A stretch of DNA of 64,000 nucleotides from Bryoerythrophyllum caledonicum (lineage: Eukaryota > Streptophyta > Bryopsida > Pottiales > Pottiaceae), in contig OZ020517.1 in assembly GCA_963971425.1 (NCBI GenBank), positions 6,512,501-6,576,500 on the forward strand, read 5' to 3'. A program made the translations under genes and the position numbers. Positions 1,515 through 60,111 of the stretch are shown piece after piece. Under the pieces are notes generated by a model. The model was given only the letters and a program-made list of their open reading frames with translations. It had not been told where the DNA came from and searched no databases. Position 1 is the first letter of the stretch, and the number at the start of each line of letters is the position of its first letter.

Positions 1515-1567
1515 CAGGATTGCTATCTTGTGAGCGGTGAGCCTTGAGCAGCGAGCGGTGAGCACAG
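1515..1567 (+). repeat. Left terminal inverted repeat of element A
   Basis: The terminus starts CAGGATTGCTATCTTGTGAG and runs into short GC-rich iterations of the type GAGCGGTGAGC / CAGCGAGCGGTGAGC, then a poly-T tract. It matches the right terminus in inverted orientation (an exact core of at least 20 bp) and the start of the second copy at 56757 in direct orientation. The GAGCGG-type iterations vary in number between the three termini, which looks like slippage in a multi-site transposase-binding region. Confidence 0.88.
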
Positions 1568-2097
1568 TTTTTTTGGTTTTTTTTTTGCCCAAAAAATCTA
1601 AAAAAATATATGGTACCTACGGCCGTGGATTAAATTTACAAACTTTTGGCAATAAATTAAAAACATGCAACAATAAACAACGACAAGATATTTGGACATT
1701 GTGACTACGTAATTCTTGATGTTTAGGATTGTAACAATTCGTCTAAAAACCTGGAGTGACATCTATGGCTGTGGATTGGATCTACTTTATCCTTTTAATA
1801 CATGGGTGACATCCATCTAATACCTAGGCGATACCCGTGTTGTTTTACTACTTTGATTTGGAAAAGTTAGATACTTTGAAAGTATTGGCATGTTCAATAA
1901 ATATGGTTTGAGATTGTAAAAATCTCGTGGCACAAAACATAAAATGTATTAACATAACACAAATGATAATTACGTTGGCTAAGTATATAAAGAAACAAAT
2001 CGATATTCCTGAATAAAACACAATAGATAGAAGACTTTAATAAAGATATAAAAAAACAACATGCATTGTTAAAAAAAAATACAACCAAATGGATAAT
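1568..2097. other. Left subterminal region of element A, non-coding
   Basis: AT-rich spacer between the terminal repeat and the 3' end of the methyltransferase-like gene. It contains phrases such as 'cctacggccgtggat' and 'catctatggctgtggattgg'. Comparable phrases ('cctatagccgtgag', 'cctatagccatgg') recur in the same place in the second copy at 56.85-56.98 kb. These may be subterminal transposase sites or relics of shared ancestry. The 3' untranslated region and polyadenylation signals of the minus-strand gene should lie here. I see no gene. Confidence 0.5.
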
Positions 2098-5000
2098 TCA
2101 ATTTTCCTCCCCTGATAGCTCATCTGAGCTATCCTCATAAATATCAGGCGAACTACTATCCGTACCACTACCAACCGCTTCCCCATCTATGAAGCGCTCT
2201 GCTGCGGACCTGCGTTGGGGTACTCGTGAAATCGGAGGAGGAGATGGTAGGGCAGCCATCGCATGTGCGATGCCCCAATCCCAAGGATTCATGTGATACG
2301 AACGAGGCGGACTCATCATCTCCTTCGACAAGCGCGATAACACTCCGGTTTCCGATGTGGATGATGAAGCCATCAACGACGTCGACCGACTGCATTAATC
2401 AAGTGGAACGGTGATGTCAACGACTGAATATTTTCAAAGGCAGTAAACTTCAACGGAAAGTCAATTAAATAAGATGGGACCCTAAACGTACTTACAAGTC
2501 CTCTTGCGAGCGGTCTTCACCTCGGGCTCGTCATCATCGACCTCCAATGGGCGTTTTCTAGAGCCTTCATGCAACGGTGGCTGAATTCCGGACTCTACTT
2601 CCATGGTGCTCGGAATCAAAGGGCGGAGGACCTCATCAACCAAACCAGCGTCCTCTTCTAATGCGAGGATGTGGCGCTTAAGGGCCTTACAAGCCTTGAT
2701 GGATGCACCTATTATAATGAAACAAGTTAATAGAAGTTAGCAAATGAGGAAAAAAAACCATGAGAGAAGAAGAAGTCTGTAGAACACTTACCTGTGGATG
2801 CTGTAAGATCGAGGACAATCTCATCTTCTTTGGTACAAAGGTCGATAAGAGCCTCCATGAGGTTGGAGGACTTCTCTCGTGCTCCACGCCATGGCTGGTT
2901 GGTGGATCCCCTCATCGTCAGCGTCTCCTGTGTAATCAGATTGGTCAAGTGACCATCTGATGACAACTGAATCCCCTCCAGCAACAATTCCATCCTATCA
3001 TTAAATGAAAATGGAACCCAAGGCTCCAACTTCCTCACATAGCACTTCACCATGAAGCACTTGTGAGTGCGCCCGGGATGGCCCTCGCGCGAGAGAGACA
3101 AGCCATTAATGGCAAACCACTTTGTCTCCTCACGGAAATCTGCCCACTCAGCCCAAGCATGAAGTTCGTTCGAGATGAACTTCGAGTCTGGGTAGAACAC
3201 GATGAGCGGTGCCCCATTGCGAAGCAAGGCCTCTGCCATCTCGAAACATCGGTGAATCCAAGGGGATTCGAGCTTTCCTCCAGTAGAGTGCTGAGTTGGA
3301 AGTTTGTTCCAACTCGGCACCGAACCACCGCCCTCAATTCCAGGGACGGGCAAATCCTCAGGGACATCAAAGAGTATCATGTCCACCAAACCGTCATCGC
3401 AAGGCTCTCCGCGGTGATGCCGCAAACGCGACCCGGAATGCACCTTCATAAACTGCCGCATCTCTAACCAAAGAGATGGCAGGTCATCCTCTTCAGCAAT
3501 ACTATCGAACAAAGTCATAATGCTGAGAGCGCTTTGAGAAATCACCTCCACTCCGACAGTAGACTCCAAATGCTCCACTGCAGGAATCGTGTAGATTGTC
3601 TGCGAGGGCTTTGCCACGTAGGTGGAGGGTCGGCTGCTGCCCGATGGAGAAATGCCTTGCGTCGGTCCCATGGCAGCTGGAATAGCAAACGCTGCTGCCC
3701 CTCCAAGCTGAGCAAACAACTTCTCAGGCCCCTCCTTTGCCACAAATGCCGCCAACTCCCTGTTCCTCTCCCTCGTCTCCTTCTTCAAACTCTTCGCTTT
3801 GAGATTCTCCACCCTCAATGCCTCCTTCTCTGCCGCCTTGAGCGCCGCCTTCGTCGCCCTTTCCGCAGCCTTTGCACGATCCTTCTCTAAAAGCAAACCG
3901 TCAACTGCCTCAACTACGGCAGAAACTGAAGAAGGAAGCATGTCGCCATCTCCACCAGTGGCTAAGGAATCACAGTCTCTTCGAAGCTGAAGCTCTTCAC
4001 CCGGTGTGGGATCCGAATTCTTCAACTCCAAGTACCAAGGGCACTGCACCAAGTGATGACGAGAAAAACGCTGCCTCTGCTGCTCGGTGAAGATACAGTC
4101 TGGTGAAGTAGGGTCCGTCCACTTCTTGAAGCGGATGGGCATTTGACTTGGCACCAACGCTCCTTTAACCACTAGCTCCCTCCAGAAGTAGCGAAGCACC
4201 GCCCGCTTCATGGTCTTCTCGCATCCCTCCTGCTTTAGAAACTCCTCTGACTTCGAGAACACACCTTTTCTCCCAAGGTGGTCCTTGAATGCCTTCGCCC
4301 ACAGCATGATGCTCCAAGCCTCCATCCAAGAACCAATGTCTTGGATGGGATTAGGGAGCCCGTCATTCTTCAATACGACGTTGTCCTCTTCAATTAGCTC
4401 CGAGAACTTCTTCTCAATTTCCTCCTCCAACTATAATATACAGTACAATCTCTTAGACAAAATCAATATCCAAAATTGTTACTTGTAATTGCAATAGACA
4501 ATAGAGATTTGGAAAACTCACCCCTGCCCAAAAGGCTGCAGTATCGATCCATCCCCGAAGACTCGTGTCTGAAGCTGGCGATTTGGGGAAATTGTACTCC
4601 GCCCTACTGTCCTTGCTCATGTTCCACCATTTGCACCATCTTCCCTTGAACTTCCCAGCCACCTTCGCCGTGCAAATGAGTTGGAGCTTCTCGAGTGTCA
4701 TCTCTGGCTTAGTCTGGTAAATATCGAAATGACGCAACACCTAAAGTAGAGCACGAATAACTGGACTCAGTTATGGTTCGAAACTAAAACAAATTGAAAC
4801 AACATGGATAAAACATAAACAGATGCCATAAAATTTGAAATTCACATACCTCCTTGAAGAATTCCTCACCGTTCGCCGGGTTTCCAACCGCCAACATCCG
4901 TGTAAATGTTGTTTGACAAGCTATTTTTTTCTTGTGCACGGCATCAGTGCAGAGTCTCACCAACTCTGCTGGACTTCCAACGCGATCAACACCAACACCA

Positions 5001-8000
5001 GTGACAAGGCTATCCTTGTAATTGCGTATGCACTCCTCTTGGGCAGCAATAATCTCCCGCTAGAAACCAACATTCATCAGAAATACATAATGAAAATTTA
5101 ACAGTTACTGAACAAAAATGCAATGATAATTTCAGTTCAAGTGTAGGCTGATAAACATACCTCAAACATGAGTTTCTGAAATGCGTCATACGTCATGTGA
5201 TACCATTTCTTTGTAGTCTTCTTCCCCCACTCGTGCACACTAGCTTCATAATCATCATCACTAATCAAGCCCTTCAACTGCTCAAAGTCCAACAATCCGA
5301 AATGTTGGACCCTCTTCAACTCATGTGATAAATGCTGCGTGACGTGATCAGCCTCTTTTTGCCTATAATAAACAAACCATAATTTAGATACGTGCATGAC
5401 CAATATGGATTTAAACCACCAAATACGACCATGGCAACGATGATAATTGGAGAATTGCAGAATTATTATTAACAAAAATCAGGAGGATTGCATCTTACTT
5501 GTTAAGATCAGTCATGGCGTTGAGAAGAATATGGCGGTTTTCCAAACACGGCTCTAGAACCACTGCCCTCACCGGTGAATGGAAGATGAAGTCTCGAGAG
5601 TGCATCTGGGATATCACCTCCATCCACGCAATGTGGCGGTGGTTGCCATCCCAGATAAAGAAGTACTTGTTTGAGAACGACTGCAACTCCGGCCTCATCT
5701 GCAACATCATCTCAAACTTGCGATCCTCCTCTTGCCAAAGTGTAGACCAGTTGGCTCGCTCAGAAGGGAGTACCTCCTGCTCGGTCATTGAGAAACTCTT
5801 CGACGCAACATAGAAACATGCGGATCCGGGTCGATATCCCTTCACAAACTCCGCCTTGAGCTTCTCAACATCACTCTTCAAGGGGAGACGAACTTCCGTC
5901 ATAGGTAGCATGCGGCATAGTGGAATGAGGAGCTCCTCGATTGAAGGGTAGAGTGACCTCTGTAGGACATCTGACGCTGTCCCACGAATGGACTTCCTCA
6001 ACGCTTGCTCGGTCGATTCCATCCTCGAGTCGCCCTCAAAGTCATGGATCTCTTCCTCCTCAGGTTGATTCATCGGATCTAAGCTCTCCCTACAGGATAC
6101 CGTCCCTTGTTCTTGCGGTGCCGCCTGAAATATTAAAGCACAAAGGAACGTCACCATAGAAACACAGTGAGCCTATAAATCTCTCTCACTCGGAACGCAG
6201 CAGCCTACCTCATCGAGGGGGACGCTCCCTCTAGTCATGGACATCCCAAAGGACCCAACGTTCCTTAAGCGCTTCTGACCCGAGGCCTCCACCTGAAACC
6301 AACATACAAACCTCAGCACCAAGCATGCAATCAACATAAAAAATCAGCGTACATTCTCCACGAGCGTATGAGATAGTCCCCTATTACGGATTCTGTCATC
6401 CTGCGACCGTGCAACTTGCTACGCGTACCCTAAACGAGGAGTAGTTGGAGATAAGAAAACCGACGAGCTGCAGTACTCGTGAAGAGGAAAAAAAAAAAAT
6501 CACGACTCCCCAGACCACCCTCGGATCCGAGGGTCAAATTGTGCAACCAAAATTTCAAAAAAAAAACGCGCGTACCTCCACCACGAGCACTGCAACGTGC
6601 TCTTACTAGCGAGCTCCGCTCCACGCGAGCACCTGAATTTAATTCTCCAAGCCCTAAACGAGGAGGACCAGCACGTGGTCTATCACTAGTTGGAGATAAG
6701 AAAACCGACGAGCAGCAGTACTCGTGAAGAGGAAAAAAAAAACCACGACTCCCCAGACCACCCTCGGATCCGAGGGTCAAATTGTGCAACCAAAATTTCA
6801 AAAACAAATGCGCGTACCTCCACCACGAGCACTTCAATCTGCTCTTACTAGCGAGCTCCGCTCCACGCGAGCACCTGAATTTAATTCTCCAAGCCCTAAA
6901 CGAGGAGGACCAGCACGTGGTCTATCACTAGTTGGAGATAAGAAAACCGACGAGCTGCAGTACTCGTGAAGAGGAAAAAAAAAACCACGACTCCCCAGAC
7001 CACCCTCGGATCCGAGGGTCAAATTGTGCAACCAAAATTTCAAAAAAAAAACGCGCGTACCTCCACCACGAGCACTTCAATCTGCTCTTACTAGCGAGCT
7101 CCGCTCCACGCGAGCACCTGAATTTAATTCTCCAAGCCCTAAACGAGGAGGACCAGCACGTGGTCTATCACTAGTTGGAGATAAGAAAACCGACGAGCAG
7201 CAGTACTCGTGAAGAGGAAAAAAAAAACCACGACTCCCTAGACCACCCTCGGATCCGAAGGTCAAATTGTGCAACCAAAATTTCAAAAAAAAAACGCGCG
7301 TACCTCCACCACGAGCACTGCAACGTGCTCTTACTAGCGAGCTCTGCTCCACGCGAGCACCTGAATTTAATTCTCCAAGCCCTAAACGAGGAGGACCAGC
7401 ACGTGGTCTATCACTAGTTGGAGATAAGAAAACCGACGAGCTGCAGTACTCGTGAAGAGGAAAAAAAAAACCACGACTCCCCAGACCACCCTCGGATCCG
7501 AGGGTCAAATTGTGCAACCAAAATTTCAAAAAAAAAACGCGCGTACCTCCACCACGAGCACTTCAATCTGCTCTTACTAGCGAGCTCCGCTCCACGCGAG
7601 CACCTGAATTTAATTCTCCAAGCCCTAAACGAGGAGGACCAGCACGTGGTCTATCACTAGTTGGAGATAAGAAAACCGACGAGCAGCAGTACTCGTGAAG
7701 AGGAAAAAAAAAACCACGACTCCCTAGACCACCCTCGGATCCGAAGGTCAAATTGTGCAACCAAAATTTCAAAAAAAAAACGCGCGTACCTCCACCACGA
7801 GCACTGCAACGTGCTCTTACTAGCGAGCTCCGCTCCACGCGAGCACCTGAATTTAATTCTCCAAGCCCTAAACGAGGAGGACCAGCACGTGGTCTATCAC
7901 TAGTTGGAGATAAGAAAACCGACGAGCTGCAGTACTCGTGAAGAGGAAAAAAAAAACCACGACTCCCCAGACCACCCTCGGATCCGAGGGTCAAATTGTG

Positions 8001-10016
8001 CAACCAAAATTTCAAAAAAAAACGCGCGTACCTCCACCACGAGCACTTCAATCTGCTCTTACTAGCGAGCTCCGCTCCACGCGAGCACCTGAATTTAATT
8101 CTCCAAGCCCTAAACGAGGAGGACCAGCACGTGGTCTATCACTAGTTGGAGATAAGAAAACCGACGAGCAGCAGTACTCGTGAAGAGGAAAAAAAAAACC
8201 ACGACTCCCCAGACCACCCTCGGATCCGAGGGTCAAATTGTGCAACCAAAATTTCAAAAAAAAAACGCGCGTACCTCCACCACGAGCACTGCAACGTGCT
8301 CTTACTAGCGAGCTCTGCTCCACGCGAGCACCTGAATTTAATTCTCCAAGCCCTAAACGAGGAGGACCAGCACGTGGTCTATCACTAGTTGGAGATAAGA
8401 AATCCGACGAGCTGCAGTACTCGTGAAGAGGAAAAAAAAAACCACGACTCCCCAGACCACCCTCGGATCCGAGGGTCAAATTGTGCAACCAAAATTTCAA
8501 AAAAAAAACGCGCGTACCTCCACCACGAGCACTTCAATCTGCTCTTACTAGCGAGCTCCGCTCCACGCGAGCACCTGAATTTAATTCTCCAAGCCCTAAA
8601 CGAGGAGGACCAGCACGTGGTCTATCACTAGTTGGAGATAAGAAAACCGACGAGCTGCAGTACTCGTGAAGAGGAAAAAAAAAACCACGACTCCCCAGAC
8701 CACCCTCGGATCCGAGGGTCAAATTGTGCAACCAAAATTTCAAAAAAAAACGCGCGTACCTCCACCACGAGCACTTCAATCTGCTCTTACTAGCGAGCTC
8801 CGCTCCACGCGAGCACCTGAATTTAATTCTCCAAGCCCTAAACGAGGAGGACCAGCACGTGGTCTATCACTAGTTGGAGATAAGAAAACCGACGAGCTGC
8901 AGTACTCGTGAAGAGGAAAAAAAAAACCACGACTCCCCAGACCACCCTCGGATCCGAGGGTCAAATTGTGCAACCTGATTTTAGAATAAAAAATGTGCGT
9001 ACCTCCACCACGAGCACTGCAACGTGCTCTTACTAGCGAGCTCTGCTCCACGCGAGCACCTGACTTTATTTCTCCAAGCCCTAAACGAGGTGGACCAGCA
9101 CGTGCTCTATCACTAGTTGGAGATAAGAAAACCGACGAGCAACTGAAGAGCAGCAATCCTAATCGAAGTGGCCGAGCAGCTTGAGGATGTGGCTGAGGAA
9201 GTGAATATTATAATTATTGGTTGACCCATGGTTCACGGTATCGTTGGCACCCGGGTAATCCTGGCGCTCCAAGAATATTTGAATGAACTATATGTAACGA
9301 TGTGAGACATTGAGACTCTAGAAGTACTATTCATTCAATCAGGTTCTGCAGACGCCGGATAGGGAGGCTATGATACGTACCTGAGGCGATGAGCCTGGTC
9401 CTGGCTCAGGTTGTGATGGGGTTTTGCTGTTCTTACTTCGATGATGAAATCTAGCTAGACTAGCGAGTGTTTGAGCTGGGGAAGTGGGGTTGATCTTTGT
9501 AGACCTTGATGGATTTCCTCGGCTTCCAGATGCAATAGTTGACTTCATCATTTGACACTGAGACTCCTCAGAACTGTCGTCAGTCTCCTTACCTCTTTCC
9601 AAAGAGGTATCCGAGGCACCAGATCTCTGATACTGACTCATCGTATTAGCTTGAAGTAAGTCCTCTTCTAGTGTCTTCCCACAAATATGCTCACTAGGCC
9701 TATTTACCTGCACGATCTTGGAACGACTGTAGTCAAGCCCTAACACTACTCAACTTATATGAGTCAATAATCTCTGCAAATCAATGGAACACCAATCAAA
9801 TAATACCTGATCTCTGTAACGGGATGATGAAGCTCCTTTGTGGATAGTTGTCAAATCCCTAAGTTCCTTACTTGATGTTGCGCCCACTACTACTGTATTC
9901 TGAGAAGCTAATAATGCTAGCTTCTCTCGACGTTTCTTCTGAGCGCGTACTTGCTTAGGATTTGAAAACTTTGTAGGTCTTCTCCTCTGTCTAGCATTCT
10001 TAGTCATCCTCAGCAC
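2098..10016 (-). CDS. Element A gene: ParB-like domain fused to a divergent beta-class DNA methyltransferase-like domain
   Basis: Proposed exons in order of transcription: 10016-9807, about 9710-9381, 6292-6209, 6124-5499, 5362-5161, 5059-4850, 4740-4522, 4430-2792, 2708-2492, 2389-2098. All introns are GT-AG and phases agree throughout, giving about 1,340 aa. The N-terminus is very basic (start MLRMTKNARQRRR), probably nuclear. Exon 6124-5499 ends with a ParB/sulfiredoxin-type signature, FFIWDGNHRHIAWM. Exon 4430-2792 has an alanine/lysine/glutamate-rich coiled coil, then DMILFDVPED where beta-class methylases have DPPY, and GAPLIVFYPDSKF. The permuted cofactor region EDEIVLDLTASTG is split by an intron and continues ASIKACKALKRHILALEED. 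The C-terminus is acidic. The fold order (motif IV before motif I) fits N4/N6 methylases, but the catalytic tetrad is DVPE. The 3.1-kb intron holds the 243-bp satellite. The acceptor of exon 2 and the first exon are the least certain parts. An active methylase is not excluded, but a DNA-binding pseudoenzyme is likelier. Confidence 0.72.
6430..9150. repeat. Eleven-copy 243-bp satellite inside an intron, each unit with a 16-bp palindrome
   Basis: Units of 242-243 bp start with 'ttggagataagaaaacc' at about 6446, 6690, 6932, 7175, 7418, 7661, 7904, 8146, 8389, 8632, 8874 and a last partial one at 9117. Each contains the perfect palindrome CCCTCGGATCCGAGGG at 6518, 6761, 7003, 7489, 7975, 8217, 8460, 8703 and 8945, with the one-base variant CCGAAGG in the units at 7246 and 7732. 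Other fixed parts are an A-tract of 8-11 bases, a 'gcgcgtacctccaccacgag' block and 'cagcacgtggtctatcacta'. Copies alternate in small variants (cagcag/cagctg; gcaacgtgc/tcaatctgc), suggesting amplification of a two-unit block. The array lies wholly in the intron between 9380 and 6293 of the methyltransferase-like gene and just outside its ParB-encoding exon. Confidence 0.93.
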
Positions 10017-10610
10017 TCAACCCTAAACTGTTATCTCCACTTCCGAAACATCACAAACTAGCAGGTATAGCACTCACTAATAGTCACAACTGCAAGGTCG
10101 CAACCGTGCAATACTTATCTCATCATGCTACCTTCGACGGGGGGGATAGATTCAGTTCTCGAAAATATCGGATCTTGACGGTCTTTAGTTTGAATAGAGA
10201 CAGCGTTGTAGTCTCTAATAATGTTACTTTCACCATATATATCCCACCGTCTGGCGCAAACTTCATATTTACAGGTATACCAAGCATCACTATTGAAAAA
10301 AGACTGCAGGCATGGTATTAAAACAATGGGCAACCCTTCCGTTTCAAGGAGCCCCGATTAGATAATTTGATATATTAAGATATGCATGGACTACTACAAG
10401 CATGACTTTCATTGCTTTTTGTCGTATCCGTCCAGGAGGAAAGAGAATTGCTGCATGAGCATCCTACGTGTGATATTAATTTATTATCCCGCCGGAAAAA
10501 GGCCAATGAACCATCTTATTTGAATGTGGACGCAAGCAGTGACTCATTCTCTTTCGTCAATCCAAGGTCATTTCGCAAAGTTGTTCAACCTTCTCTGAGA
10601 CCCCTGGAAC
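10017..10610. promoter_or_regulatory. Shared divergent promoter region of element A
   Basis: This 0.6-kb interval separates the first exon of the minus-strand methyltransferase-like gene from the ATG of the plus-strand transposase gene, so both promoters must be here or in the adjoining exons. I see no certain TATA element; 'accatatatatccc' near 10230 is the best AT-rich candidate. An open frame at 10412-10666 overlaps the transposase start in another frame and has no recognisable content. Confidence 0.45.
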
Positions 10611-13600
10611 ATGGCGTCTCTTTCATCATGTCGAGGGGGCATCCCTTTTCTCATGCCTGTTGGTGAACGTGGCACTGTCATTGTCGCAGAGTCTTTGCTT
10701 TGTCTTCGTTTTGGATTTAAGAGTGGAACAGTTCAAGTCGAACAGGAAGTATTTGATAGTAACGGGATTCACACGCAATCCATTTATCAAGTCAAAGATC
10801 GTGATGCGGTAGGATTTGTGTGGAATTTATGTTCAGGTTCATTCAAAGTGTACGGTGTGTTAGATGCTCAGATGTCTGGTCATGCATCTACAACCGTCAC
10901 CACTTTTTCAGAGGATTCCGGAGATACGATACTCCTGCCTGGTTTGGGCACGAGGTCTATCCCAATTGTCCATACACTTAGCGACACAGAGGAAGAAGAT
11001 TTCACTGATCCCAACGTAGGTAACTCACAAAATCTCACCAATTGTCACAAGTCATTCCTTCCCAGTATGTCTATTTCACCTGCATCGATATCCGATACGT
11101 CCCAATCTGTTTCAATAGGAAAGCCACCAGTTGATCCTAAATCCAGAAGAATACGGAGTATTCTTCTGCAAGTGCGTAAAACAGGTCTTAGGAAGGGGTC
11201 CAGGTCGGAGTTGTCACGAATTGATCTAGATAGTCTAGATCTGAAAAGTGTGAAGTACTTGCCTCCAGATTACAATGGAAACCAAATCTTTGAACTACCG
11301 CCACTTCCAGAGGGTATCCCCCCATAGTTTGGAGGGGGGCTCGATGGTATGAGTAAGCAGTACGATGGTCACGCTTGGTGCAGGACGATGACTACAAACA
11401 TCAAGAATGACTTCAGCCTCACATACCGGAAGTCAACGTGTACCGGGCATCTCCAGTGTCCCAACGCAAGTTGTGACTATAAGAGCAGAAATGAAGGGCG
11501 CACGAATCAAACCGAGTGGAGCGGGTTCGCCTTCATCCCGTTTCCTGTCAACGGACCACCCTCCGAGAAGTCAACATTGGCATGTAAGCTTTGTCGGACT
11601 CCTCCTATTTGTATATCTCTCTGTGATGCTCGTATCTACTACGTGACATCGACCGATCTGTCACGCACTCGTGCGGCCATTCATCTTGGGCACCATGACC
11701 ATCCCATCTCGAAAGGCGTCGACCAGTGCGCGATGGACGTTGTCCACGACTGTGTTGCCAAAGAAGTCCAGCGCACACCGAAGGCTACGAACTCCGCAAT
11801 CATAATGGCAGCGAGCAAGAACTTTCTTTCTGACTACTTGATTCGTCCGACATCCGGGTCATCTACTTTGGAAGGAGCTTCTATGGACGTTGTCCTGGAT
11901 CAATTCGAGACACTCTCATCTCCAAATATTAGAAACCTTGTGTCAACTTGCAAGAGGTTCTATAGTGGTGGTAAGGGAGTGATGGACAACATTATGGCCC
12001 TAAAAGAATCGTCCAAGTTCGTGTTCATACACGAGAACAAGTTCCCTGGTCAATCCAAAGGTAAAGTATTTGTCTTCAAGATGTCAGTCGATCGAGCAGG
12101 TAGTGGTGTGGATCTTGTCAAGCGTATGCAACCCGGGAATGACCTACAAGATTGTTGGTTGATGTTCGATCATGTCAAGCGGGTCAAAGAATGGACAACC
12201 ATGGCATGTCATGTATACGATAGTAAGTATTGTCGAGTCATGACAATTGCCATGTGCGATATGCAATCCGAGGATGCTGACGCACAACAGCTTTTCTGGG
12301 AGAATTTGAATAATACGATGAAGAACCATGGATTGGAGGCGACGAACTTCAAGGGCTTCATGGCGGATAGTGCTGGAGCTAACTGGCACGCAGTTCGTCG
12401 AGTTTACGGCAACGGCGACAAAGACAAGCCCATGGACAACAAGGAACGGACTTGTCTATTCCATTGGACGAAATGCCTCCAGCGAGCCACCGTTCGGAAC
12501 ATTATTGCCGGCTTCCAAGACCAACATATTGCCCTTTGCAAGATCTGGAAGAATGCAAAGTCACAAGAGGAGGCTGAAGCGCAATATAATGTAATAAGAG
12601 GGTGGTGGGTGTCCTCTGGTGCCACTACCGAAGTAGGGCGACGAGCTCTTGAGGATTGGATGGCGTTTTGGCACTTTCGGTATCGACAGTGGGGCGGCGC
12701 AATGCAACTTGTAAGTTCTCTGTACTTTTCATACAATCTATTCTCCAGTTCTATCTGTTATAGTGCTTTGAAATCATTTTATGACCCTCGTTGACTCCTT
12801 ATAGGATCTGACGCTGGATGAGAGGGCGGACATGCCTTCATGCAACCTCGCTGAAACCGTCCACAACCGGTGGCTTCAGCAATCAGGGAACACGATGACA
12901 TGCTTATACGCTGCCACCGTGGACGATCTCATCCGTGCTTTCATGCAGATAACTTCATATCGTGCATGGTTGAAGGGTGGAACATCTGGTACTGGACCGG
13001 ACAAAGGCACGCTGAGGCTTCGTTCTGCTCAACGTTCAAGTGATCCCAAACTCATTGCTGAGGCTATTAGGAACTTTCCAAATGCTGCAGATCTATTAAA
13101 CCGAACTGGCGGACTAGAAGGTTCGGAGATTTTTGGGTCAACGAAGCGCAAGCTTGATTTGCCCCCAGGGTCCGAACATGATTCTCACCGTTCCGATACG
13201 GTGAACTACTCTATTCCATGAGATAGGACAAGGGTGACTCGGGCACGTATCGAGGAGTCCCTTAGCGGTCAAAACTCCGGAGTTCAACACACAACCTCCG
13301 TCCAAGAGTCGGACTGTGATCCAATGAAGTGGCACATTGCTCGTCTTCCAAAGAAGTCCGCTCGAAGATGCCAGGCATTGCAAGCTCATACAGGTCAGCA
13401 ATGCAACGCTCGAGTACAACGTGGAAGTTATGGAACTCCGGCCCCAACATACGCTGGTTTTAAGAAGGATTTCAGGAGTCCACGAAATGTTGCTGCGGAG
13501 TTCTGGTTTTGCCCTGATGACATTAGCCGTTGTGTGAAGGGATCGAAGCGATCATTTGTACTGGATTGGAACGCAGTTCCAATAACGTGGCCTGTGAAGT

Positions 13601-14172
13601 TTGGCACAAACCTAACAGTGCAAGAGGTATTGGTGTTAGAGGAAGCCGGTTTCCAATTGCAGCAACGTGGTGCTCTTTCACCACGTAGACAATTCCAAGT
13701 GTCTTTGGACATGCCCCTTCCGCGTTCCCACTTCCCGGTTCCCGTGAATCCAAATTCATTCCACACATTTCGGCACGGCTATGCGATCCGTAGGGCCTCG
13801 GACGTTCCCACAATTGAGCAACGCAATAAGTGGTCAAGCGCGGCTCTTATGAATAACTGTTACGTTTCGAACGTCGTTGCCATACCATACCCAGGTTGGG
13901 GATGTGTTATTACCCTTGACACATGCTTTGAAAAGTCCTACTGCATCACCTTTACGGACCTCCCGGGGTGTTCTTGCCCTGATTTCTTGAAAATGCAGTC
14001 GGAGGCATTGGGAAAAAAGGGGCAGTGGAAGTATTGCAAGCATGTGTACTACATCCTTCGTTACTTGTGTAAGATGGATTACAAGGTGGACGTATTCATG
14101 CACGCTCCCAGTTATAGCTTCAACGAAGTGATGCGCATTCTCGAAGTTGCCAACATTGCAGAACAAGCATGA
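10611..14172 (+). pseudogene. Element A transposase: MULE type with zinc-binding N-terminus and SWIM finger, two in-frame stops
   Basis: Two exons, 10611-12710 and 12805-14172, joined by a 94-bp GT-AG intron (CTT|gtaagt ... ttatag|GAT) in phase 0. Read through, they give about 1,150 aa. Exon 1 carries a Cys/His region (CTGHLQCPNASC, then CKLC, then HLGHHDHP) like the WRKY-GCM1/FLYWCH-type fingers of MULE transposases. It then has the catalytic-core features MTIAMCDMQ (first Asp), GFMADSAGANW (second Asp) and CLFHW after it. Exon 2 has the SWIM pattern CSC ... CKH in DLPGCSCPDFLKMQ ... WKYCKHVYYIL. The frame is interrupted by TAG at 11325-11327 (after PEGIPP) and TGA at 13219-13221 (after VNYSIP), with full conservation of reading on both sides. 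It is either recently inactivated or depends on read-through. It is divergent from the ParB/methyltransferase-like gene. Confidence 0.85.
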
Positions 14173-14535
14173 GTAGTCAGAGTTTGTAGCAAAGATCAGA
14201 CGTCAAGATTTGGTCCTAAGTAGCATCACAGAGTGAGCAAGATATCAAATTATACTTTTGAATTGGGGATCAAAATCCTGAATTCAGAATTTATGAGACA
14301 TGATATTGTACTAAGTAATAAATTGAATGTTCATAGAAACGTAGTCACGAGAGAGGAGAAGACCCCAAATCAGAAGTTGTTTTGACAAAGCTAAGGTGAC
14401 CACGGTTATAGGACTCATTCTTAATTTAGTAAATTGTATCAAACTTTGTGTGCAATTTTTTCATTTCTGTGGATTTTTCCTTGAATTTCACATTTTTTTG
14501 AAAAAAACACTTTTTTTTTTTTTTTCCAGAGATTT
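14173..14535. other. Right subterminal region of element A, non-coding
   Basis: Spacer between the transposase stop and the right terminal repeat. It ends in a long T-tract at about 14510-14525, mirrored by the poly-T just inside the left terminus. I see no gene; it should contain the transposase 3' untranslated region. Confidence 0.5.
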
Positions 14536-14588
14536 TTAGGCTCCCTGCTCGCCGCTCGCCGCTCACCGCTCACAAGATAGCGTCGCTC
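14536..14588 (-). repeat. Right terminal inverted repeat of element A
   Basis: Read inward on the minus strand it gives GAGCGACGCTATCTTGTGAG followed by CGGTGAGCGGCGAGCGGCGAGC. The core at 14562-14581 is an exact inverted match to 1522-1541. The outermost seven bases are diverged from the left end and from the second copy at 56757, so this terminus has either mutated or adapted. Confidence 0.88.
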
Positions 14589-14598
14589 AGGTCTATCC
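14589..14598 (+). repeat. Right target-site duplication of element A
   Basis: AGGTCTATCC, identical to 1505-1514. Collapsing the two copies gives the pre-insertion site, which lay just downstream of the RING-like pseudogene that now begins at about 14627. Confidence 0.9.
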
Positions 14599-16145: not shown

Positions 16146-16785
16146 TGAAACTCAACTACAGTACCCTACAAGGTCATGACAAAATGGTCAAGACAAAATG
16201 GTGAGCATGCAAGAACAATAGGGGATGAAAACAGAAAAAGCTAGAGTGGGCTTCGAAAACAACAAGGAGCTGAAACAGACTTGATAGTAATGGCCAATGG
16301 AAAGTTTCAAAACATGGCGGACATGGCCAATGGGAAGTTCCAAAACATGGCGGACATGGCCAAAGTTTGCTTCATCATCTATCAAATGTCAAGCTAGGAC
16401 TTGACAGTTTGATGTAGTTACACAGTAAAATGCAGTAAACTTGTCTGAATTGAAGTGCTAGCAAGTAGCCTAATTACACCCACACTTGACAGTTTGATGT
16501 AGCACAACAAAGTGCAGGTCAGGTTCTCAATTAAAGTGCTAGCAAGTGCACAATTACACTCAGTACAATTGGCACGTCACTAGAAATCATTGAGTAGGAC
16601 CCTTGAATGAGAAATGAAATCCTCTACAGCTAGGTAATAATATATATAATATATATATATATAAAAGGTAATATATCCAAAAAGGATCTCCGATTCCCAC
16701 CATGCTGCTATATCCCAAGAAAGCTTCTTCCGGATCCTGGTTTTTTTTCATTCCAATCTCTAATTGAATTGATAATAATGTATAT
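16146..16785. other. Non-coding spacer
   Basis: AT-rich spacer upstream of the copy 1 pseudogene. It includes short direct repeats ('acttgacagtttgatgtag' twice near 16400 and 16490; 'ggccaatgg(a/g)aag' with 'aaaacatggcggacatggcc' twice near 16300-16370) and an AT dinucleotide-like tract near 16640-16665. I see no gene. Confidence 0.5.
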
Positions 16786-16789
16786 AGAT

Positions 16790-17095: not shown

Positions 17096-17099
17096 TCAA

Positions 17100-36236: not shown

Positions 36237-36269
36237 TGCATATTCAGCTCGAGTCGAGCTGAATATGCA
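36237..36269. repeat. Element B palindrome copy (perfect)
   Basis: Perfect 33-bp palindrome with one central base: arms TGCATATTCAGCTCGA and TCGAGCTGAATATGCA. It lies in the 550-bp spacer between the FCP1-like and ParB/methyltransferase-like genes. The rest of 36026-36576 shows no further gene. Confidence 0.92.
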
Positions 36270-40735: not shown

Positions 40736-40814
40736 TGGATTTCTGCAATGGAGTCCGTAAGTGAATTCAGATTTTATTATACGTACTGAATGTATTACAA
40801 TTTTTTCTTAACTT

Positions 40815-49479: not shown

Positions 49480-50390
49480 AAGTTTCATTTAGTGTAGTGG
49501 ACACTAAATACGAACCCATACACTAATTGTCAACTACGCAATTAGCGTAGTGACAAAATAATACACTAAATGTGAACTACTACACTATTTGTGAACTTTT
49601 GTAAAGATTGGAATATTTACTTTTTTACTCGTGCACGTTTAGTGTATTGAAAGTAGAAGAGAATTATGTGTACGAAAAGGTGAAAAAGAGAAAAACTAAA
49701 ACTCCCAAAGAAAAAATTGGAAAAAACAGCAATTGGGAAAAAAGAGCAATTAGGAAAAAACAACAATTTGGGTAAACAACATATAGGAAAAAACAACATT
49801 TTTGCGAAAACAACAATTAGGAAAAAACAATTAGGAAAAAACAACATTTTTGAAAAAAACAAGAACTAGGAAAAAACATCAATTCGGGGAAAAAAGACAA
49901 CTTACCTTTTGCAAAGGTAAACTTTTGTAAAAATAAGCTTTTCCAAATGTAAACATTTGAAAAAGTAAAGATTTGAAAAAATTCACTTTTGAAAAAGTGA
50001 ACTTTTGAAAAGAAATCTTGGAAAAAAGTAAAGTTTTGAAAAAGTGAGGTTTTGAAAAAGTAAGGTTTTGAAAAACTAAGATTTTGAAAAAGTATACTTT
50101 TGAAAAAGTAAATGTTTGAAAAAGTCAATTCTAAAAAAGTAAACTTTTTAAGAAGTAAAACTTGAAAAAATAATCTCTTGAAAAAGTAAGTTTTAAACAA
50201 ATTATATTTCCATAAAGTGTACTCCGATAAAGTAATCTTTGATAAAGTAAATATTGATCAAATAATCTTTTTGAGAAAGTACACTTGTTTGCAATTAGTA
50301 CACTATTTGTCAACTTGTTTGCAATTAGTGTACTACAGTAAGTACACTATTCGTGCAATTACAGTAAATGAAACTTTTTGTGTAGTGACT
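49480..50390 (-). mobile_element. Non-autonomous CACTA-like element, inverted relative of 18841-19655
   Basis: One end has CACTAAATACGAACCCATAC followed by 'actaattgtcaactacgcaattagcgtagtg'. The other end reads inward as CACTACACAAAAAGTTTC. The interior is 'gaaaaagtaaac.tttt' iterations, the complement of those at 19.0-19.5 kb. No coding capacity; exact ends and target duplication are not settled. Confidence 0.5.
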
Positions 50391-51221: not shown

Positions 51222-51224
<3 letters not shown>

Positions 51225-51894: not shown

Positions 51895-52029
51895 TGCACA
51901 TTTAGCTCGACCCGAGCTGAATATGCAGTGCACATTCAGCTCGACCCGAGCTGAATATGCAGTGCACATTCAGCTCGACCCGAGCTGAATATGCAGTGCA
52001 CATTCAGCTCGACCCGAGCTGAATGTGCT
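51895..52029. repeat. Four tandem palindromes upstream of the DUF7869-type gene
   Basis: Four copies with a 34-bp period start at 51895, 51929, 51963 and 51997. Each has arms TGCACATTCAGCTCG / CGAGCTGAATATGCA around the shared centre ACC. They share the variant centre and so arose by local amplification. They end 135 bp before the ATG at 52164, the position of a promoter or leader. Confidence 0.93.
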
Positions 52030-52163: not shown

Positions 52164-55019
52164 ATGGACACTTCAACCGGTGCCTCAATCGATGATGATT
52201 TTGATTTGTCAAGTGACAACTCGTCTTTCCACGATCCAGTAGATGCTGATTTGATGGAATTCGAAGTTCTCCCAAGGCATTCTTGGGTTGGTAAGATAGT
52301 CGAAATGAAAAACCTGTCCGGAGTTACAATTGCCACTGGAATACTTCGCAACCTTCACACCACGGCTATTTCTGGGTCTGATGCTCCATTAGGTGATACG
52401 CACGTTGCCATTCAGGTCTCCAGGACATTAGTTGAAGATGAAGCACCGGACGAATGGCGTTATTGTGTTAAGATTTGGCCTGTTGGTCAAGTTTTCTATA
52501 ATAGTGTCAGTCTCTTGCATCACCAGCAGCGTGATACTTACAATTCTGTAATGGCAATGAGAAGCCGGTCTCTTGGAGAGAGGACTCGCTCTTACGAAAG
52601 TTCATCTAGGATCCCTTCAACCATGGTTTCAACAAAATCATCAATTCTCCTCTCTGACGAATCTATCAACTCTGTTGCTGGAAAACGCTGTTGCTTGAGG
52701 AGTTGTGTTCAACGCTTCCCACGATTGAAGATTAAGGTATTGCGGATGAGGATGTATTTTGGAACCTCCGTTCAATTTCGAAGGCATATGAAGCTAGATG
52801 TTCACGGACAATTTCATGTGGACAATAACGGTAGAAATGTGGTGACCATTGAGGGCGTTGATGTGTGCGCAGCTGCTTGGCAGCACATCATGGGCGTCAG
52901 TGAAACCTCGTTCTATGAATATGCCAAGGATGCAGCGGCTGGTGTAGTCGCGCAAGCCCATGGTAATTCTGGGAAACGGAAACCTAGAAATCACACAGTA
53001 GTCGCTACCGCAGCATTACGTGTCATTCTTAATAGAAATGCTGACCACATGCCCCACAAGTCCCGCATCTTGCCTTCGGGTGAGACATCCGTCGCCAAAG
53101 TTCTTCCCGCAAATTTCAAGTGGAAAGATCAAATTCCTGCAATTGATGCCCATTTAGTTGGTTGCGGGCTTTCCCAAATTTCCACTTCAGGGCTGAGTAA
53201 GATTAGACGGGTCCATTTTTCCGATTACAATGCAAAACGACCTGGGGATAACTTTGCACGTTGTTCAACGTGTGATAAGTACCATTCCCATCGGAGGTTG
53301 CAGCAACCTGGAACAGAAGCTGCGCTAATGTGGCAGCAGAGGTTGAATCTCCATTTGGATTCAGCATGGGCTCATCGAGAGTTGTATTATTCCAACCGTT
53401 ACCGCTCTCAAGAGTTTCCGGATGAATGTGTTACGATTATGCACGACAAGATGGATCACTCAAAGACTGCATCTCCTGTCCTCTCTCACAAGACAAAACA
53501 TTTAGATGGTCTGATGAAGTTGCCCATCTCTGTTACTGGAATGCTTGCACATGGTCATGGTGATGTTCGTTATGCTCATTATGGCTTGGACATTTACCCA
53601 CATGATGTCAACTATACAGTGGGATCTTTTGCTAGATTGTTGCGAGACTTAGAACAACCTTCGAAGACATCGTCTCGACAATTATTTTTGGATTCGGGGA
53701 GAACTGCATTGTTTCGAGCTGTTTTGCAAGGAGCTTCAGATACTTGTGTCCCATTCCTCCGTGCCGCACCTGAGTCTCTAGCTACAGCAAAACCTTTGCC
53801 GCCTATTTTGCATGTGCAAATGGACAATGCGGTCAGTGACAACAAAAATAGATATGTGTTTTGCTTTTGGTCTCTTCTTGTTGCAAAGGGTATCTTCCGA
53901 GAAGTTTATGTTAATTTCATGCTTGTTGGCCACACACATGATGACATTGATGCATTATTCGGTCGATGGAGTATGGCTTTGAAGAAGGAGAGTTTCCCCA
54001 CGATCCCTTTGCTTATGAGATCATTTATGGAGAACGAAAGTGTGCCAACAATCCCCCACTTGATTGAAGAAGTCCCGGACTTCAAGTCCTTTATTAGTGA
54101 AGGTATTGCAGGTGGAGACGAAGCATTGCAGGGCCACACAAAGGCTCACCAATTCAAATTCTTTGTTGACTCCAACGGATGTCCCATGATGAAATACAAG
54201 ATTCTTTGTCATCAAGATGATTGGCTTCCAAGAGAAGGGGGTGGGATCAAATTGTGGAAGGAGGATTCAAATGGGAGGTCTTTGTGGCCACGTGGAGAAC
54301 CACCTTCATTGCAGCCACATGCAATGCGCAATCTTCCTGAAGTGATTAAAGGTCTTTCTGGATTCATTTCATATTGGGAGCATCAAGCACGTGAGGATCG
54401 TACAGGTGAATATCGAAGGCGATATGAGCCTTTGAGCTACTATTGGCGGGCAGTTAGAGAGTCACTTAGTCAACCAATGGACTTGCCCACCTCTCTACAG
54501 GATGGTTTTTGGCCTTCTAGTCGTATTGGTCAGACAATCGAGGACCAATTCACTAGTGTGGGCGCTGTTCGTGAGGATCATGATGACGATGACCATTTTG
54601 TTGGGCAGAGTCGAGATAGGCCAGCCCCTTCTTTTCGGATTAATCGAGACGTTTACTCAGGCTATTTTGTTGCATTAAGACCGTGTGATGGAGATGAACG
54701 TCCTGTTTGGATTGCACAAGCGCTCTCGGACCCTAATTCGGATCTGGAAAGGCCTAACTCTATCAAAATACAGTACTTCCGCCCCACTTCGCGCGATGCA
54801 AATGTCCAAAGATGCTATGATGGATGGGCCTCTTCCAACGGTCTACAATGGACAATTGATGACGAGCAACATCCGCAATGGGAGGACACCGGATCTCTAT
54901 TGACTGCATGGAAGTCTAGAAGTAGGAGTGAATTTCCTGTTGTGAAGATCCCTAGAAATCAAGTTCAAATCATCCAAGATAGTTTGATCAGGGATGCCGC
55001 GCCGTCTTCTTTGCAATGA
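52164..55019 (+). CDS. DUF7869-type transposase-like protein of element B (intact, 951 aa)
   Basis: One uninterrupted frame from ATG 52164 to TGA 55017-55019. A splice acceptor-like 'ttttgcag' just before the ATG suggests an upstream leader exon. The C-terminal half carries the DUF7869 signature as I know it: VTIMHDKMDHSKTASP with an early Asp pair; GHGDVRYAHYGLDIYPHDVN; LHVQMDNAVSDNKNRYVF; and VGHTHDDIDALFGRWS. The three acidic clusters (D..D, D-N, H-x-D-D-x-D) would fit an RNase-H-like DDE/D transposase core, but that reading is my inference. Before it lies a Cys/His block, ARCSTCDKYHSH. The family is common in repeat-rich genomes of streptophytes and invertebrates. It is the best candidate for the enzyme that moves element B. 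It is preceded by four tandem palindromes and followed by several more. Confidence 0.8.
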   Translation: MDTSTGASIDDDFDLSSDNSSFHDPVDADLMEFEVLPRHSWVGKIVEMKNLSGVTIATGILRNLHTTAISGSDAPLGDTHVAIQVSRTLVEDEAPDEWRYCVKIWPVGQVFYNSVSLLHHQQRDTYNSVMAMRSRSLGERTRSYESSSRIPSTMVSTKSSILLSDESINSVAGKRCCLRSCVQRFPRLKIKVLRMRMYFGTSVQFRRHMKLDVHGQFHVDNNGRNVVTIEGVDVCAAAWQHIMGVSETSFYEYAKDAAAGVVAQAHGNSGKRKPRNHTVVATAALRVILNRNADHMPHKSRILPSGETSVAKVLPANFKWKDQIPAIDAHLVGCGLSQISTSGLSKIRRVHFSDYNAKRPGDNFARCSTCDKYHSHRRLQQPGTEAALMWQQRLNLHLDSAWAHRELYYSNRYRSQEFPDECVTIMHDKMDHSKTASPVLSHKTKHLDGLMKLPISVTGMLAHGHGDVRYAHYGLDIYPHDVNYTVGSFARLLRDLEQPSKTSSRQLFLDSGRTALFRAVLQGASDTCVPFLRAAPESLATAKPLPPILHVQMDNAVSDNKNRYVFCFWSLLVAKGIFREVYVNFMLVGHTHDDIDALFGRWSMALKKESFPTIPLLMRSFMENESVPTIPHLIEEVPDFKSFISEGIAGGDEALQGHTKAHQFKFFVDSNGCPMMKYKILCHQDDWLPREGGGIKLWKEDSNGRSLWPRGEPPSLQPHAMRNLPEVIKGLSGFISYWEHQAREDRTGEYRRRYEPLSYYWRAVRESLSQPMDLPTSLQDGFWPSSRIGQTIEDQFTSVGAVREDHDDDDHFVGQSRDRPAPSFRINRDVYSGYFVALRPCDGDERPVWIAQALSDPNSDLERPNSIKIQYFRPTSRDANVQRCYDGWASSNGLQWTIDDEQHPQWEDTGSLLTAWKSRSRSEFPVVKIPRNQVQIIQDSLIRDAAPSSLQ

Positions 55020-55647
55020 TTTTTAGTACAAAGATGTTACTCTTATACTAGTATCTAAGAATGTGTGCATAAGATCAAAATTTGTTGGCGTGATTTTAGC
55101 TCGAATCGAGCTGAAAGTGTACACCCATTTCTTGTGGAGTTTAATACATTTCAGAGTTTTGATATTTTATTATTTGCTATGCTGAATGGTTTATCGCATA
55201 GGAATTGCTTGGGCACATTCAGCTCAACTCGAGCTGAATGTGTATGGCTTTCTTTTTGGAGAGAAGTGAATTCTGGGCTTGATGATTTGCCCTTTGATAT
55301 TTGCTATTTTGAATGTTTTATCGCATAGGAATTGTTGGGGCACATTCAGCTCGACTCGAGCTGATAGTGTGTTTCGATTTGAGAAATGCATTTTCGTACC
55401 TTGACATTTGATCTTTTGTTTTTGAATGATATTTGGAAATGTAAGTGTTGCTTGCTTTCAGCTTGACTGGAGCTAAAAATGTACTTCAATTTCTTTCTAG
55501 CCTGTTTTTACATTGAAAATAATTTCGCACCTCCCATTTTAGTGGACACCAAACTCGAAAGATAGTATTCAAAGGTTACTATGAAAATCACTAACATTTG
55601 CATATTTAGGTTTGCTCAAGCTTTTCATATTATTTTGGGAGGCTCCC
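55020..55647. repeat. Right subterminal region of element B with decayed palindromes
   Basis: Non-coding. Palindromes start near 55090 (TTTAGCTCGAATCGAGCTGAA core), 55212 (GCACATTCAGCTCAACTCGA...), 55340 and, very decayed, 55455. Spacing is about 120 bp, and the copies at 55212 and 55340 share flanking text ('atcgcataggaattg'). No gene. Confidence 0.82.
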
Positions 55648-56812: not shown

Positions 56813-57618
56813 TCATGACAATTTTTACCATTGTTTTTGTTGTGAAATTAAAAAGAACACCTATAGCCGTGAGTGTAGGTGGATTGTGCTTCAAAAAAAG
56901 AAACAAATTAACATAAGAGAAATTCTTGACTTGCAATCGCTTTAATTTATAGTTTATTGAATAGAGGCACCTATAGCCATGGAACTATTATTAGAATTTA
57001 GTGGAATAATTACATCCAAAAGCAATTGGATAAGAGATAATGTAACATATATTACAAAGCAAACTTCTATACCAAATAATAACAATTTTATATATGATTT
57101 ATGGGAGAGAAGTACATCTATAATCCCCTTATTTTCTTATACAATAGAATTAAAAATATGGAGATGAAGTACATCTATTCAACTATCAAAATTCTTTTAC
57201 TGCAAATATTTTAAGTCCACATTGGATAAACATCGCTTGAATAACTCTTTGACTTGCAGTAGAGGAATTCTCTTGGATGTGTATTACTATTCTAATTAAG
57301 TCAAATATGTAGTACTATTCTAATGAATCTTTTGGGTTAAAGGAAATTTCGGCAAGAAGGTTTAGGGTGCTCAATGGAGAGAATGATAGTGATGGACCAT
57401 CTAAAAATATTTGAAACTTTGTATACTATTCATGATGTGATAATTGTATAGTTCTAAATTCAAAGACACATTATGAAAATTGATTAAAATCCATCCGTGA
57501 ATGATAATTCAATATCTATTAGATTATCTAACTAGAGTACAAACATTTATGTGGATGAAACAAATAATCAAATAAGACATCCAAGGGTGATATATATCCA
57601 TAAATCCAAAGCCTCATA
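56813..57618. other. Subterminal region of the second A-family element
   Basis: AT-rich spacer with the 'cctatagccgtg/catgg' phrases also seen inside element A. No gene. Confidence 0.5.
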
Positions 57619-60111
57619 TCAGATCAATACGGCATACAAAATAGAGGAATCACTACTCCTCAAATGTGAACTATCGTCACTGCCTTGATGGATAAACGAT
57701 TTATTGCTATCATAACCACTATCAAAATCGGTACTAGCCTCCTCAGCCTCGTCATCCACAAAAACCTCTGCTCCGGAGCCGGATCGAGCAGTAGGTGGAC
57801 GTTGTGGAGGCGACGGCTGCGCTACGGATGCAATGGCAGCAGCTTCAGCATACTCATGCAAAATATGCGGCTGCTCCGGACTGACAACCTTCCCTGCCAA
57901 GCGAGCCAGCACTCCAACGGGAGGTGTTGACAGAGAAGCCATTAAGGACGTTGAGAACCGTCTGCAACTGATTTACATTAGAAAAAAAAGATGAAAGAAT
58001 AAGATAACAAAAACAACAAATGAATGAAGAGAACTTACTTACAAGTTCTCTTAGGCACAGTCTTAATCTCTGGTTTGTCATCACCAAGCTCCAAAGGGCG
58101 CTTGAGAGAAGTCTGCTCCATGGGTTCAACAATTGCAGAATTAACCTCCACCGTCTATGGAATCATGGGTCAAAGCACCTCGTCTACCAAGTCCTTGTCT
58201 GTCTCCAAGGCAAGAATATGACGCTTGAGGGCTTTGCAAGCCTTGATAGATGCACCTGAAAAAAATGTGGAATACAAACAGTAAGAAATTAGAATCATGG
58301 TTAGATAATCAAAAAACAAAATGGAAGTATGAAATGAATATACCTGTAGAAGCGGTGAGGTCCATGACGATTTCATCTTCCTTGGTGCAAAGATCAATAA
58401 AAGACTCCAATAGATTTTGTGACTTCTCTCTCGCTCCTCGCCATGGCATCCCGGTGGAGGCCCTCACCGTCAGTGACTCCTGGGTGATGTAATTGGTCAG
58501 ATGACCGTCTGAAGAAAGCTCAATCCCATCCGCCAAAAGCTCCACTTTGTCATTGAAGACATGGAATTTGAGGATCCCTCTTCCGAACGAACCACTTGAC
58601 CATGAAAGTCTTGTGTACGCGGCCGGGGCGACCATCAGAGAAGAGGGGAAGTCCATTGAAGGGGAACTACTTCGCCATTTCGTCGAATCTCAACCACTGA
58701 GCCGAAGAAACCAATTCATTTGAAATGAACCTGGAATCTTGATAGAACACGATGATAGCTCCTCCATCACGAAGAAACGACTCTGCCAACTCGAAGTTAA
58801 ACCGAATCCACAATGATTCTTTCCGACCCTTGGGGTCGGCACTGTAGGTAGTGTGTTCCATGGTAGAATCACAGTACCACTCTGAATGGGACTGCAACTA
58901 GCAAGTCCTCCGCAACGTCAAATATAAACATATCCGCCAAACCATCCTCAGTCAATTCCCCCTTCATGTACCGCGTCCTAGATCCGCCATAGGCCATCAA
59001 CCAGTGTGCTATATCCCTTTAATCTGGCGGAACGTCATCCTCAGCTGTAACTGAATCATAATCAGTAAAGATAGAGTAGGCGCTGGTATTGATTACCTCA
59101 ACACCTATAGTGGACTGTGTCTGCTCGACTATAGGAATCGAATAGATGGTCTGCGTTGGTTTTGCAACGAATGCTCATGGTCGGCTGTTAGCGGATGGAG
59201 AAGCGCCAAATGTTGCCAATACGGGTGCCAGCCGTAAGAACGATCCAAGACCCACGGCAGACAACAGTTTCTCGGGTCCCTCCTTTGCCACCAGTGTTGC
59301 CAACTCCTTGTTCTTTACTCGAGTCTCTTTCCTCTCCTTCCGTACAATCTCCTTCTCCAACCGTGCCGCCTCTCGCTCTGCATCTCTAGCCGCAATCTTG
59401 GCAGCCTTCTGTATTGCCCTCTCCTTGGCATTTTCAGATAGCTCAAGCTCAGGCTCAACCAGGAATGGAGCTGAAGCATGCAAAGCTGGACCAGCTCCAG
59501 AATGTGTTGCCAAAGCATCACACGACTCCCGGAGCTCCACCTCGTCACCTGGAGTTGGAACTAATCCACAAAACTCTAAGTACCAAGGACACTGAGCCAA
59601 GTGGTGTCGAGTGAAACGGCGCAACTGAGACTCTGTGAAGATACACTCAGCGCTGACAGTGGTATCACACCACTTCCTCAACCGGATTGGCAACTCCCGA
59701 GGCTGCAATGCTCCGTTGGCAACGATCTTTTGCTAGAAGTATCGAAGCACCACTCTCTTCACAGTTTGAAGTGCCTCTAGCTGCTTGAGAAACTCATCAC
59801 TTCACGAATGGCTTCGTCTCACTAAAATGGTTCTTGAACGCCTTCTTCCAGAACGTGAGAGAGTTGGCCTCAATCCACGAGCCAATGTCCAGTACCCGGT
59901 TCGGAAGACCCTCCATCCTAATGGTGATATTGTCTTCCTTCACAACCTTGGAAAACAACTTCTCTGCCTCCTCCTCAAGCTATACAGTAAATAACACAAT
60001 GTTACAAAAACATCACTAACAACTGAGTATAAAACAGTAGATCAAATAGTTTAAGAACATTGAACTTACCCCTGCCCAAAATGAAGCGACGTCGAGCCAG
60101 GGTTTAAGATT
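57619..60111 (-). pseudogene. Methyltransferase-like pseudogene, paralogue of the element A gene
   Basis: It corresponds exon by exon to the 3' half of the element A gene: 60111-60070 (ends ...DVASFWAG), 59979-58344, 58255-58039 and 57961-57619, with the same splice positions and phases. Conserved blocks include DMFIFDVAED (for DMILFDVPED), EDEIVMDLTASTG, ASIKACKALKRHILALETD and the tail MASLSTPPVGVLARL. Lesions include a one-base frameshift near 59810, TAG for Trp near 59732, TAA near 59020, TAG for Trp and a frameshift near 58570-58660, and TGA plus TAG near 58160-58180. All exons upstream, including the ParB-like domain, are missing and replaced by repeats at about 60112. So the DPPY position was already Asp-Val in the common ancestor. 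Confidence 0.85.

Follow-up and report, generated by a model that had tools for sequence, protein, structure and literature searches.

Element-specific palindromes co-vary with a transposon-encoded accessory protein in two DNA transposon types of the moss Bryoerythrophyllum caledonicum

We analyzed a 64,000-nt window of the Bryoerythrophyllum caledonicum genome (GCA_963971425.1, contig OZ020517.1, positions 6,512,501 to 6,576,500, forward strand), which contains two complete DNA transposons, here called A and B, and one decayed A-type element, C. Both A and B have a minus-strand accessory gene oriented divergently from a plus-strand transposase, and the noncoding DNA of each element carries a repeated palindrome of its own, the outer bases of which change among lineages together with the accessory protein. 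We lean slightly toward a sequence-based reading in which the accessory protein binds the palindromes of its own element, marks copies as self, and relieves silencing in the manner of the VANC proteins of VANDAL transposons. Self-recognition and the VANC parallel are supported by the match between protein clade and palindrome word and by the finding that no lineage examined was without palindromes.

Genome-wide searches covered the 437-Mb assembly (894 contigs), and all comparison lineages of both types were drawn from this same genome. A palindrome of the family type is present in every lineage examined, eight of eight for A and seven of seven for B, and the situation that an earlier note on this DNA had held to speak against its proposal of self-recognition, the gene without the palindromes, was not encountered. 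Read toward the center, the A half-site is ACCC-TCGGA in the window copy and in lineage A80 (accessory exon 81% identical), ACCT-TCGGA in A66, GAGTT-TCGGA in A64, GGCTT-TCGGA in A61, GTACC-TCGGA in A59, and GTCCC-TCGGA in A58 and in element C. The B half-site is mostly ATTC-AGCTCGA in the window copy, B54, and B51, AATC-AGCTCGA in B57 (two sites only), and CTTT-AGCTCGA in the B45 group. The prediction of the earlier note that protein clade should foretell palindrome sequence held in both families: differences in the outer half-site bases track divergence of the methyltransferase-like exon in A (Mantel r = 0.70, p = 0.0005, n = 8) and in B (Mantel r = 0.83, p = 0.011, n = 7). Bases farther outside the A palindrome show no such relation (r = 0.01).

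The palindrome of element A, ACCCTCGGATCCGAGGGT, occurs at 11 sites (9 perfect) in 243-bp tandem units at 6428-9216, between the two divergent genes; because they are carried in a tandem array, these copies are not independent. The B palindrome is a 33-mer with 26 sites at no more than 10 of 33 mismatches, all within element B (mean of 0 in five base shuffles). A perfect copy lies downstream of the accessory gene (36237-36269), two lie in the intron preceding the last accessory exon (37730-37822), and one lies in a 109-bp intron (39263-39295), where copy L005 carries three tandem units. A further 12 are upstream of the accessory gene or in its 5' intron (40815-41537), 4 are arranged in 34-bp tandem immediately before the transposase open reading frame (ORF; 51895-52029), and 3 diverged copies follow that ORF (55089-55371). 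None of the 11 A sites and none of the 26 B sites overlaps a modeled exon or ORF, with 34% of B coding in that model, and all 13 palindromes of copy L046 are likewise noncoding. The palindromes reported earlier, at least 10 per element in intron and upstream DNA, are borne out.

Partial correlations, computed for seven A lineages with a 200-residue transposase segment, separate the accessory protein from the transposase. Palindrome distance follows the accessory exon once the transposase is removed (partial r = 0.77, p = 0.003), versus a partial r of 0.35 (p = 0.084) for the transposase once the accessory exon is removed. These values bear on the alternative that the palindromes are transposase sites of the subterminal-repeat kind and that the accessory gene is incidental. 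Some B palindromes do lie about 0.3 to 1 kb from the element ends (33663, 34386, and 55089-55339), but some 5 kb separate the A array from each end of its element, and 15 of the 26 B sites fall at 37730-41537, inside the accessory gene or shortly before its start; together with the partial correlations, this makes transposase sites a very unlikely explanation. Lineages A80 and A59 illustrate the separation, as their transposase segments are 97% identical, their accessory exons are 59% identical, and their palindromes differ (L066 and L070 with L040 and L061). Because the transposase and accessory histories of this pair disagree, the comparison suggests exchange between elements.

The palindrome is also constrained within arrays that do not align. 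Window element A and A80 share 18 of 18 palindrome bases at an accessory synonymous divergence (dS) of about 0.95, whereas blastn at 1e-5 aligns nothing over window positions 6044-9491, with both flanks aligning at 68 to 77%. The identical 18-mer sits in the 243-bp units of one and in nonaligning 139/219-bp units of the other, which argues against linkage alone as the source of the correlation. It also counts against the possibility that the palindromes are passive tandem repeats or hairpins, maintained by slippage and recognized by no protein. The A arrays are indeed tandem and variable in copy number (nine perfect words in the window, five in L039), but slippage would not readily account for one word in units that fail to align or for B sites that are dispersed and, in L046, wholly noncoding, and we give this explanation almost no credence. 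The accessory gene is itself under purifying selection. The ratio of nonsynonymous to synonymous substitution rates (dN/dS) is 0.05 to 0.19 over eight A exon pairs (two of these, with dS above 3.6, are poorly estimated) and 0.07 to 0.19 for pairs that include the window A copy; for B, it is 0.11 to 0.31 over three pairs, a fourth being saturated.

Beyond the window, a 16-mer of the A palindrome finds 616 sites in the genome and an 18-mer of the B palindrome finds 1,065 strand hits, with none for either reversed control. The first 100 B palindromes listed all map to contig C1, and 57 of them have a listed B gene or transposase at a distance of 25 kb or less (3.7 expected). Of the 34 A palindromes listed on C1, 14 have a listed copy within that distance (0.4 expected). 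The C1 count omitted one of 22 listed B45 places (7665982), which has no listed palindrome within 25 kb. This clustering of the B palindromes, and the variation of outer bases among lineages of one genome in step with the element protein, weigh against the idea that the palindromes are captured sites of a host factor, such as a promoter or insulator protein. An intronic and gene-flanking location would suit host sites, yet we hold the chance of this to be slim.

Several observations weigh against self-recognition or limit how far the co-variation can carry it. A Mantel correlation reflects common ancestry and is not by itself proof of co-adaptation. Close kinship reduces the independent lineages to about five for A (A59, A58, and C are 86 to 94% alike) and about four for B (B54 and B51 are 83% alike, and the three B45 sub-lineages are 88 to 91% alike). 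Bases farther outside the B palindrome show a weak correlation as well (r = 0.41, p = 0.034), perhaps owing to the similarity of the three B45 sub-lineages. Sites in the co-variation counts were picked by their core, so that core conservation in those counts is partly by construction; the words were recovered likewise by scans that assumed no core. Lineage A58 has mixed palindrome words, and L045 of the B type has only two sites in a 4.5-kb slice. Linkage could yield part of the correlation in A because the array adjoins the accessory gene, and a looser search between the window and A80 arrays does find 28-nt matches around the palindrome as well as 48 to 58 nt at 79 to 81%. On C1, 43 of the 100 listed B-core sites and 20 of the 34 listed A-core sites are more than 25 kb from any listed copy. 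Finally, the plan shared by A and B may be a chance resemblance because profile comparison fails to link their proteins.

Element A is a 13,074-bp transposon (1515-14588) with 42-nt inverted ends (1522-1563 and 14540-14581, 86% complementary) and a 10-bp target duplication, AGGTCTATCC, on its left (1505-1514) and right (14589-14598) sides. Its left end is common to other copies, 25 of 29 stopping at 1510-1516, and a second copy is flanked by the target duplication GCCGGTAAAG; for copy L055, the examined slice ends before the right end. Target duplications of 8 to 11 bp, long inverted ends, and a Transposase_mut domain are hallmarks of MULEs. The duplication, the inverted ends, and a subthreshold match of the transposase to Transposase_mut (PF00872, E = 0.12, under the Pfam cutoff) suggest that A is MULE-like. 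The transposase region (10611-14172, plus strand) consists of ORFs at 10611-11327, 11349-12794, and 13234-14172. The accessory gene (2097-6073, minus strand) was modeled in seven exons (6073-5499, 5362-5161, 5059-4850, 4740-4522, 4430-2792, 2708-2492, and 2389-2097) that encode 1,117 residues and a stop with zero internal stops, the start codon being assumed. Among the matches listed, 41 of 77 A accessory exons could be paired with a listed transposase located 5' of them at a distance of up to 40 kb, and in each of these 41 pairs the two genes are on opposite strands. Pairing covered the 5' side and the capped copy lists, and unpaired rows therefore carry little meaning. A further A-type element end was seen at L054:674, about 360 bp beyond the point where the C15 copy of A ends.

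Element B is a 22,327-bp DUF7869 transposon (33349-55675) with 28-bp perfect inverted ends and a 4-bp target duplication, AGGA. In other copies, the left end recurs in two of two and the right end in one of two (the slice of the remaining copy is too short), with the duplication AAAA. The earlier description of A and B as different in ends, target duplication, and transposase holds, as does their common arrangement of plus-strand transposase and minus-strand accessory gene. The B transposase ORF (52164-55019, plus strand) matches DUF7869 (PF25273, E = 4e-43). The accessory gene (36577-40735, minus strand) has exons at 40735-39317, 39207-37851, and 37647-36577, and visual inspection points to a probable additional exon upstream of 41.6 kb. 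The middle exon is frameshifted in the window copy, leaving a frame of 479 codons versus 547 in most near-identical copies. Of 41 typed rows among the 100 listed, 36 have a transposase within 60 kb, all 36 on the opposite strand; for the 45% B lineage, the 150 of 3,613 DUF7869 candidates listed yielded no clear transposase partner. The element also carries a gene for a NIF-like phosphatase (34971-35810, minus strand; PF03031, E = 1.9e-18), which is present in copy L003 as well (99.8% match to window positions 34746-37763). Among the 100 matches listed for the B exon, 8 are printed at 100% identity, the window copy included, and 11 at 99%, which suggests that B transposed recently.

The earlier note ended its stretch at 60111, a position that falls within the broken gene of element C. 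This decayed A-type element begins at 56757 and continues beyond the end of the window at 64000. Its broken accessory gene (about 60156-57622, minus strand) reads DVAE at the motif IV position, and its 10 palindromes (60740-63801) are of the type TCCCTCGGATCCGAGGGA, which is also the main word of lineage A58.

The ParB/methyltransferase label that had been given to both accessory proteins stands in part. For A, the methyltransferase component has profile matches: the spliced protein matches the N6/N4 methyltransferase family PF01555 around motif I just below the cutoff (E = 2.2e-5; 25.0 bits against 26.7) and the PHROG DNA methyltransferase phrog_3008 (E = 4.5e-6); the domain lies in exons 5 and 6. 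The B methyltransferase component and the ParB component of both proteins found no profile support. No match to a methyltransferase domain was obtained for B in profile searches that included PF01555, and the label there is a by-eye reading of DFRS or DFRN and FSAFGGSKF in exon 39207-37851. No ParB profile match was obtained for A or B in Pfam, NCBIfam, PHROGs, or PADLOC, or when the A exon was searched against the PDB by profile. The ParB-like reading comes from short motifs recognized by eye, DGNHRH in exon 1 of five of six A sequences (DGNHCH in the sixth) and INGQHSVAAS in exon 40735-39317 of three of three aligned B sequences, with a stop codon at the motif in L065. Structure models of the two B exons have a mean predicted local distance difference test score (pLDDT) of 36.8 for the methyltransferase-like exon and 38.1 for the ParB-like exon and are unusable. 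We rejected PDB profile matches of A exons (eL24 at E = 0.0081, Crl, and spike protein G at E = 1.7) as chance-like and dropped weak matches to LysM14_C (E = 0.073) and, in L064, HTH_Tnp_Tc3_2 (E = 0.0038) as unrelated. A search for relatives of the A methyltransferase exon among viruses gave 25 pattern matches, none of which was confirmed, and profile comparison of shallow alignments detected no homology between the A and B accessory proteins. The common plan of A and B is therefore well founded as regards layout and palindromes, of moderate strength for the A methyltransferase domain, and weak for the other labels.

A catalytically active adenine methyltransferase, placing marks at its own sites, would offer another reason for the palindromes. 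Adenine methylases classically target GATC and TCGA; the A palindrome has GATC at its center, the B core contains two TCGA, and the A protein has the PF01555-like stretch around motif I. However, where motif IV should read DPPY (a motif placed by eye), DVPE stands in six of six aligned A lineages and DFRS or DFRN in three B sequences (window, L045, and L046). Active methylation by the A protein looks unlikely because of this replacement, and we rank methyltransferase marking as more doubtful still than host factor or transposase sites.

Under self-recognition, each element would encode a DNA-recognition protein as the product of its minus-strand accessory gene, and this protein would physically bind, possibly as a dimer, the palindrome repeated in its own noncoding DNA, in the intergenic array of A and in the introns and gene flanks of B. 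The methyltransferase-like domain would act in binding rather than in catalysis. Occupancy of many palindromes would mark self copies and keep their regulatory DNA accessible, so that silencing of both the accessory gene and the transposase would be relieved, much as VANC does. The main rival is an autoregulator that would bind the same palindromes and thereby repress or adjust transcription from its own promoter and from that of the transposase, as a form of copy number control. The sequence evidence that points to binding serves both, and the position of the A array between divergent genes and of four B sites directly upstream of the transposase would suit an autoregulator. However, B sites also occur in internal introns and past gene ends, arrays of at least 10 seem beyond the needs of an operator, and the placement resembles that of VANC sites; on balance, we regard autoregulation as unlikely.

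Of the two parallels drawn in the earlier note, that with VANC is supported, as motif arrays co-vary with the protein, and that with ParB/parS found no support past a short motif. Bacterial ParB-parS pairs a ParB protein with repeated palindromes; A and B likewise have a ParB-like motif protein alongside repeated palindromes but differ in that the likeness is confined to a short motif with no profile match. The VANC21 motif YAGTATTAY lies upstream of VANA21 as well as in introns of the VANC21 and VANB21 genes (PMC5735166), and RNA-directed methylation of VANDAL elements targets the same noncoding DNA as the VANC motifs (PMC10398659). In these elements, an element-encoded protein is matched with short motifs, often tandem, in its own introns and upstream DNA, and motif and protein evolve together (PMC5735166, PMC10398659); here, too, noncoding motif arrays co-vary with the protein of the element. 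The VANC21 motif has nine bases in one orientation (PMC5735166), whereas the palindromes of A and B span 18 to 33 bp. The A protein also differs from VANC in its methyltransferase-like domain, and binding and methylation loss are experimental for VANC, whereas for A and B they would be predictions from sequence. A fusion of a ParB domain to an adenine methylase, Bce_0392 of Bacillus cereus, has been described (PMC5512222). The A and B proteins would resemble it in this combination, their ParB label being at motif level only; Bce_0392 is prokaryotic with reported nicking activity (PMC5512222), whereas the proteins studied here have a changed motif IV and are encoded by intron-containing genes within DNA transposons.

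Other repeats were noted in the window. AT-rich arrays of 16- to 17-bp repeats at 19036-19546 and 49495-50270 are mutually inverted and about 30 kb apart, the second lying within element B. A minisatellite with an 8-bp, GGAGTC-like unit occupies 16785-17105. Direct repeats at 17915-18214 and 24104-24403 (97% identical, 6,189 bp apart) are possibly long terminal repeats. ORFs at 15681-16145 (minus strand), 22096-23115 (plus strand), and 27539-28087 (plus strand) have N-terminal motifs that are similar by eye and perhaps represent a further repeat family; none has a Pfam match above the cutoff.

No published description of such a system was recognized in the literature searched, which omits most subscription papers and all bioRxiv preprints. 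To our knowledge, the escape of transposons from silencing is poorly understood, and VANC is the sequence-specific example that we have met. As a tentative proposal, to which we give somewhat less than even credence, A and B may represent a second class of transposon self-recognition beside VANC, in which catalytically altered ParB-methyltransferase-like readers of element-specific palindromes were gained, within a single genome, by two DNA transposon types that are unrelated, and then diversified to at least six words in A and at least three in B under host silencing pressure. If self-recognition is true, a different type of protein would do VANC-like work in two more types of transposon, and one genome would supply many natural protein-site pairs with co-varying bases and residues, a ready panel for the study of recognition codes and anti-silencing. 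Even if the outcome of binding were repression, these elements would still provide DNA readers specific to transposons, in a set both large and clean.

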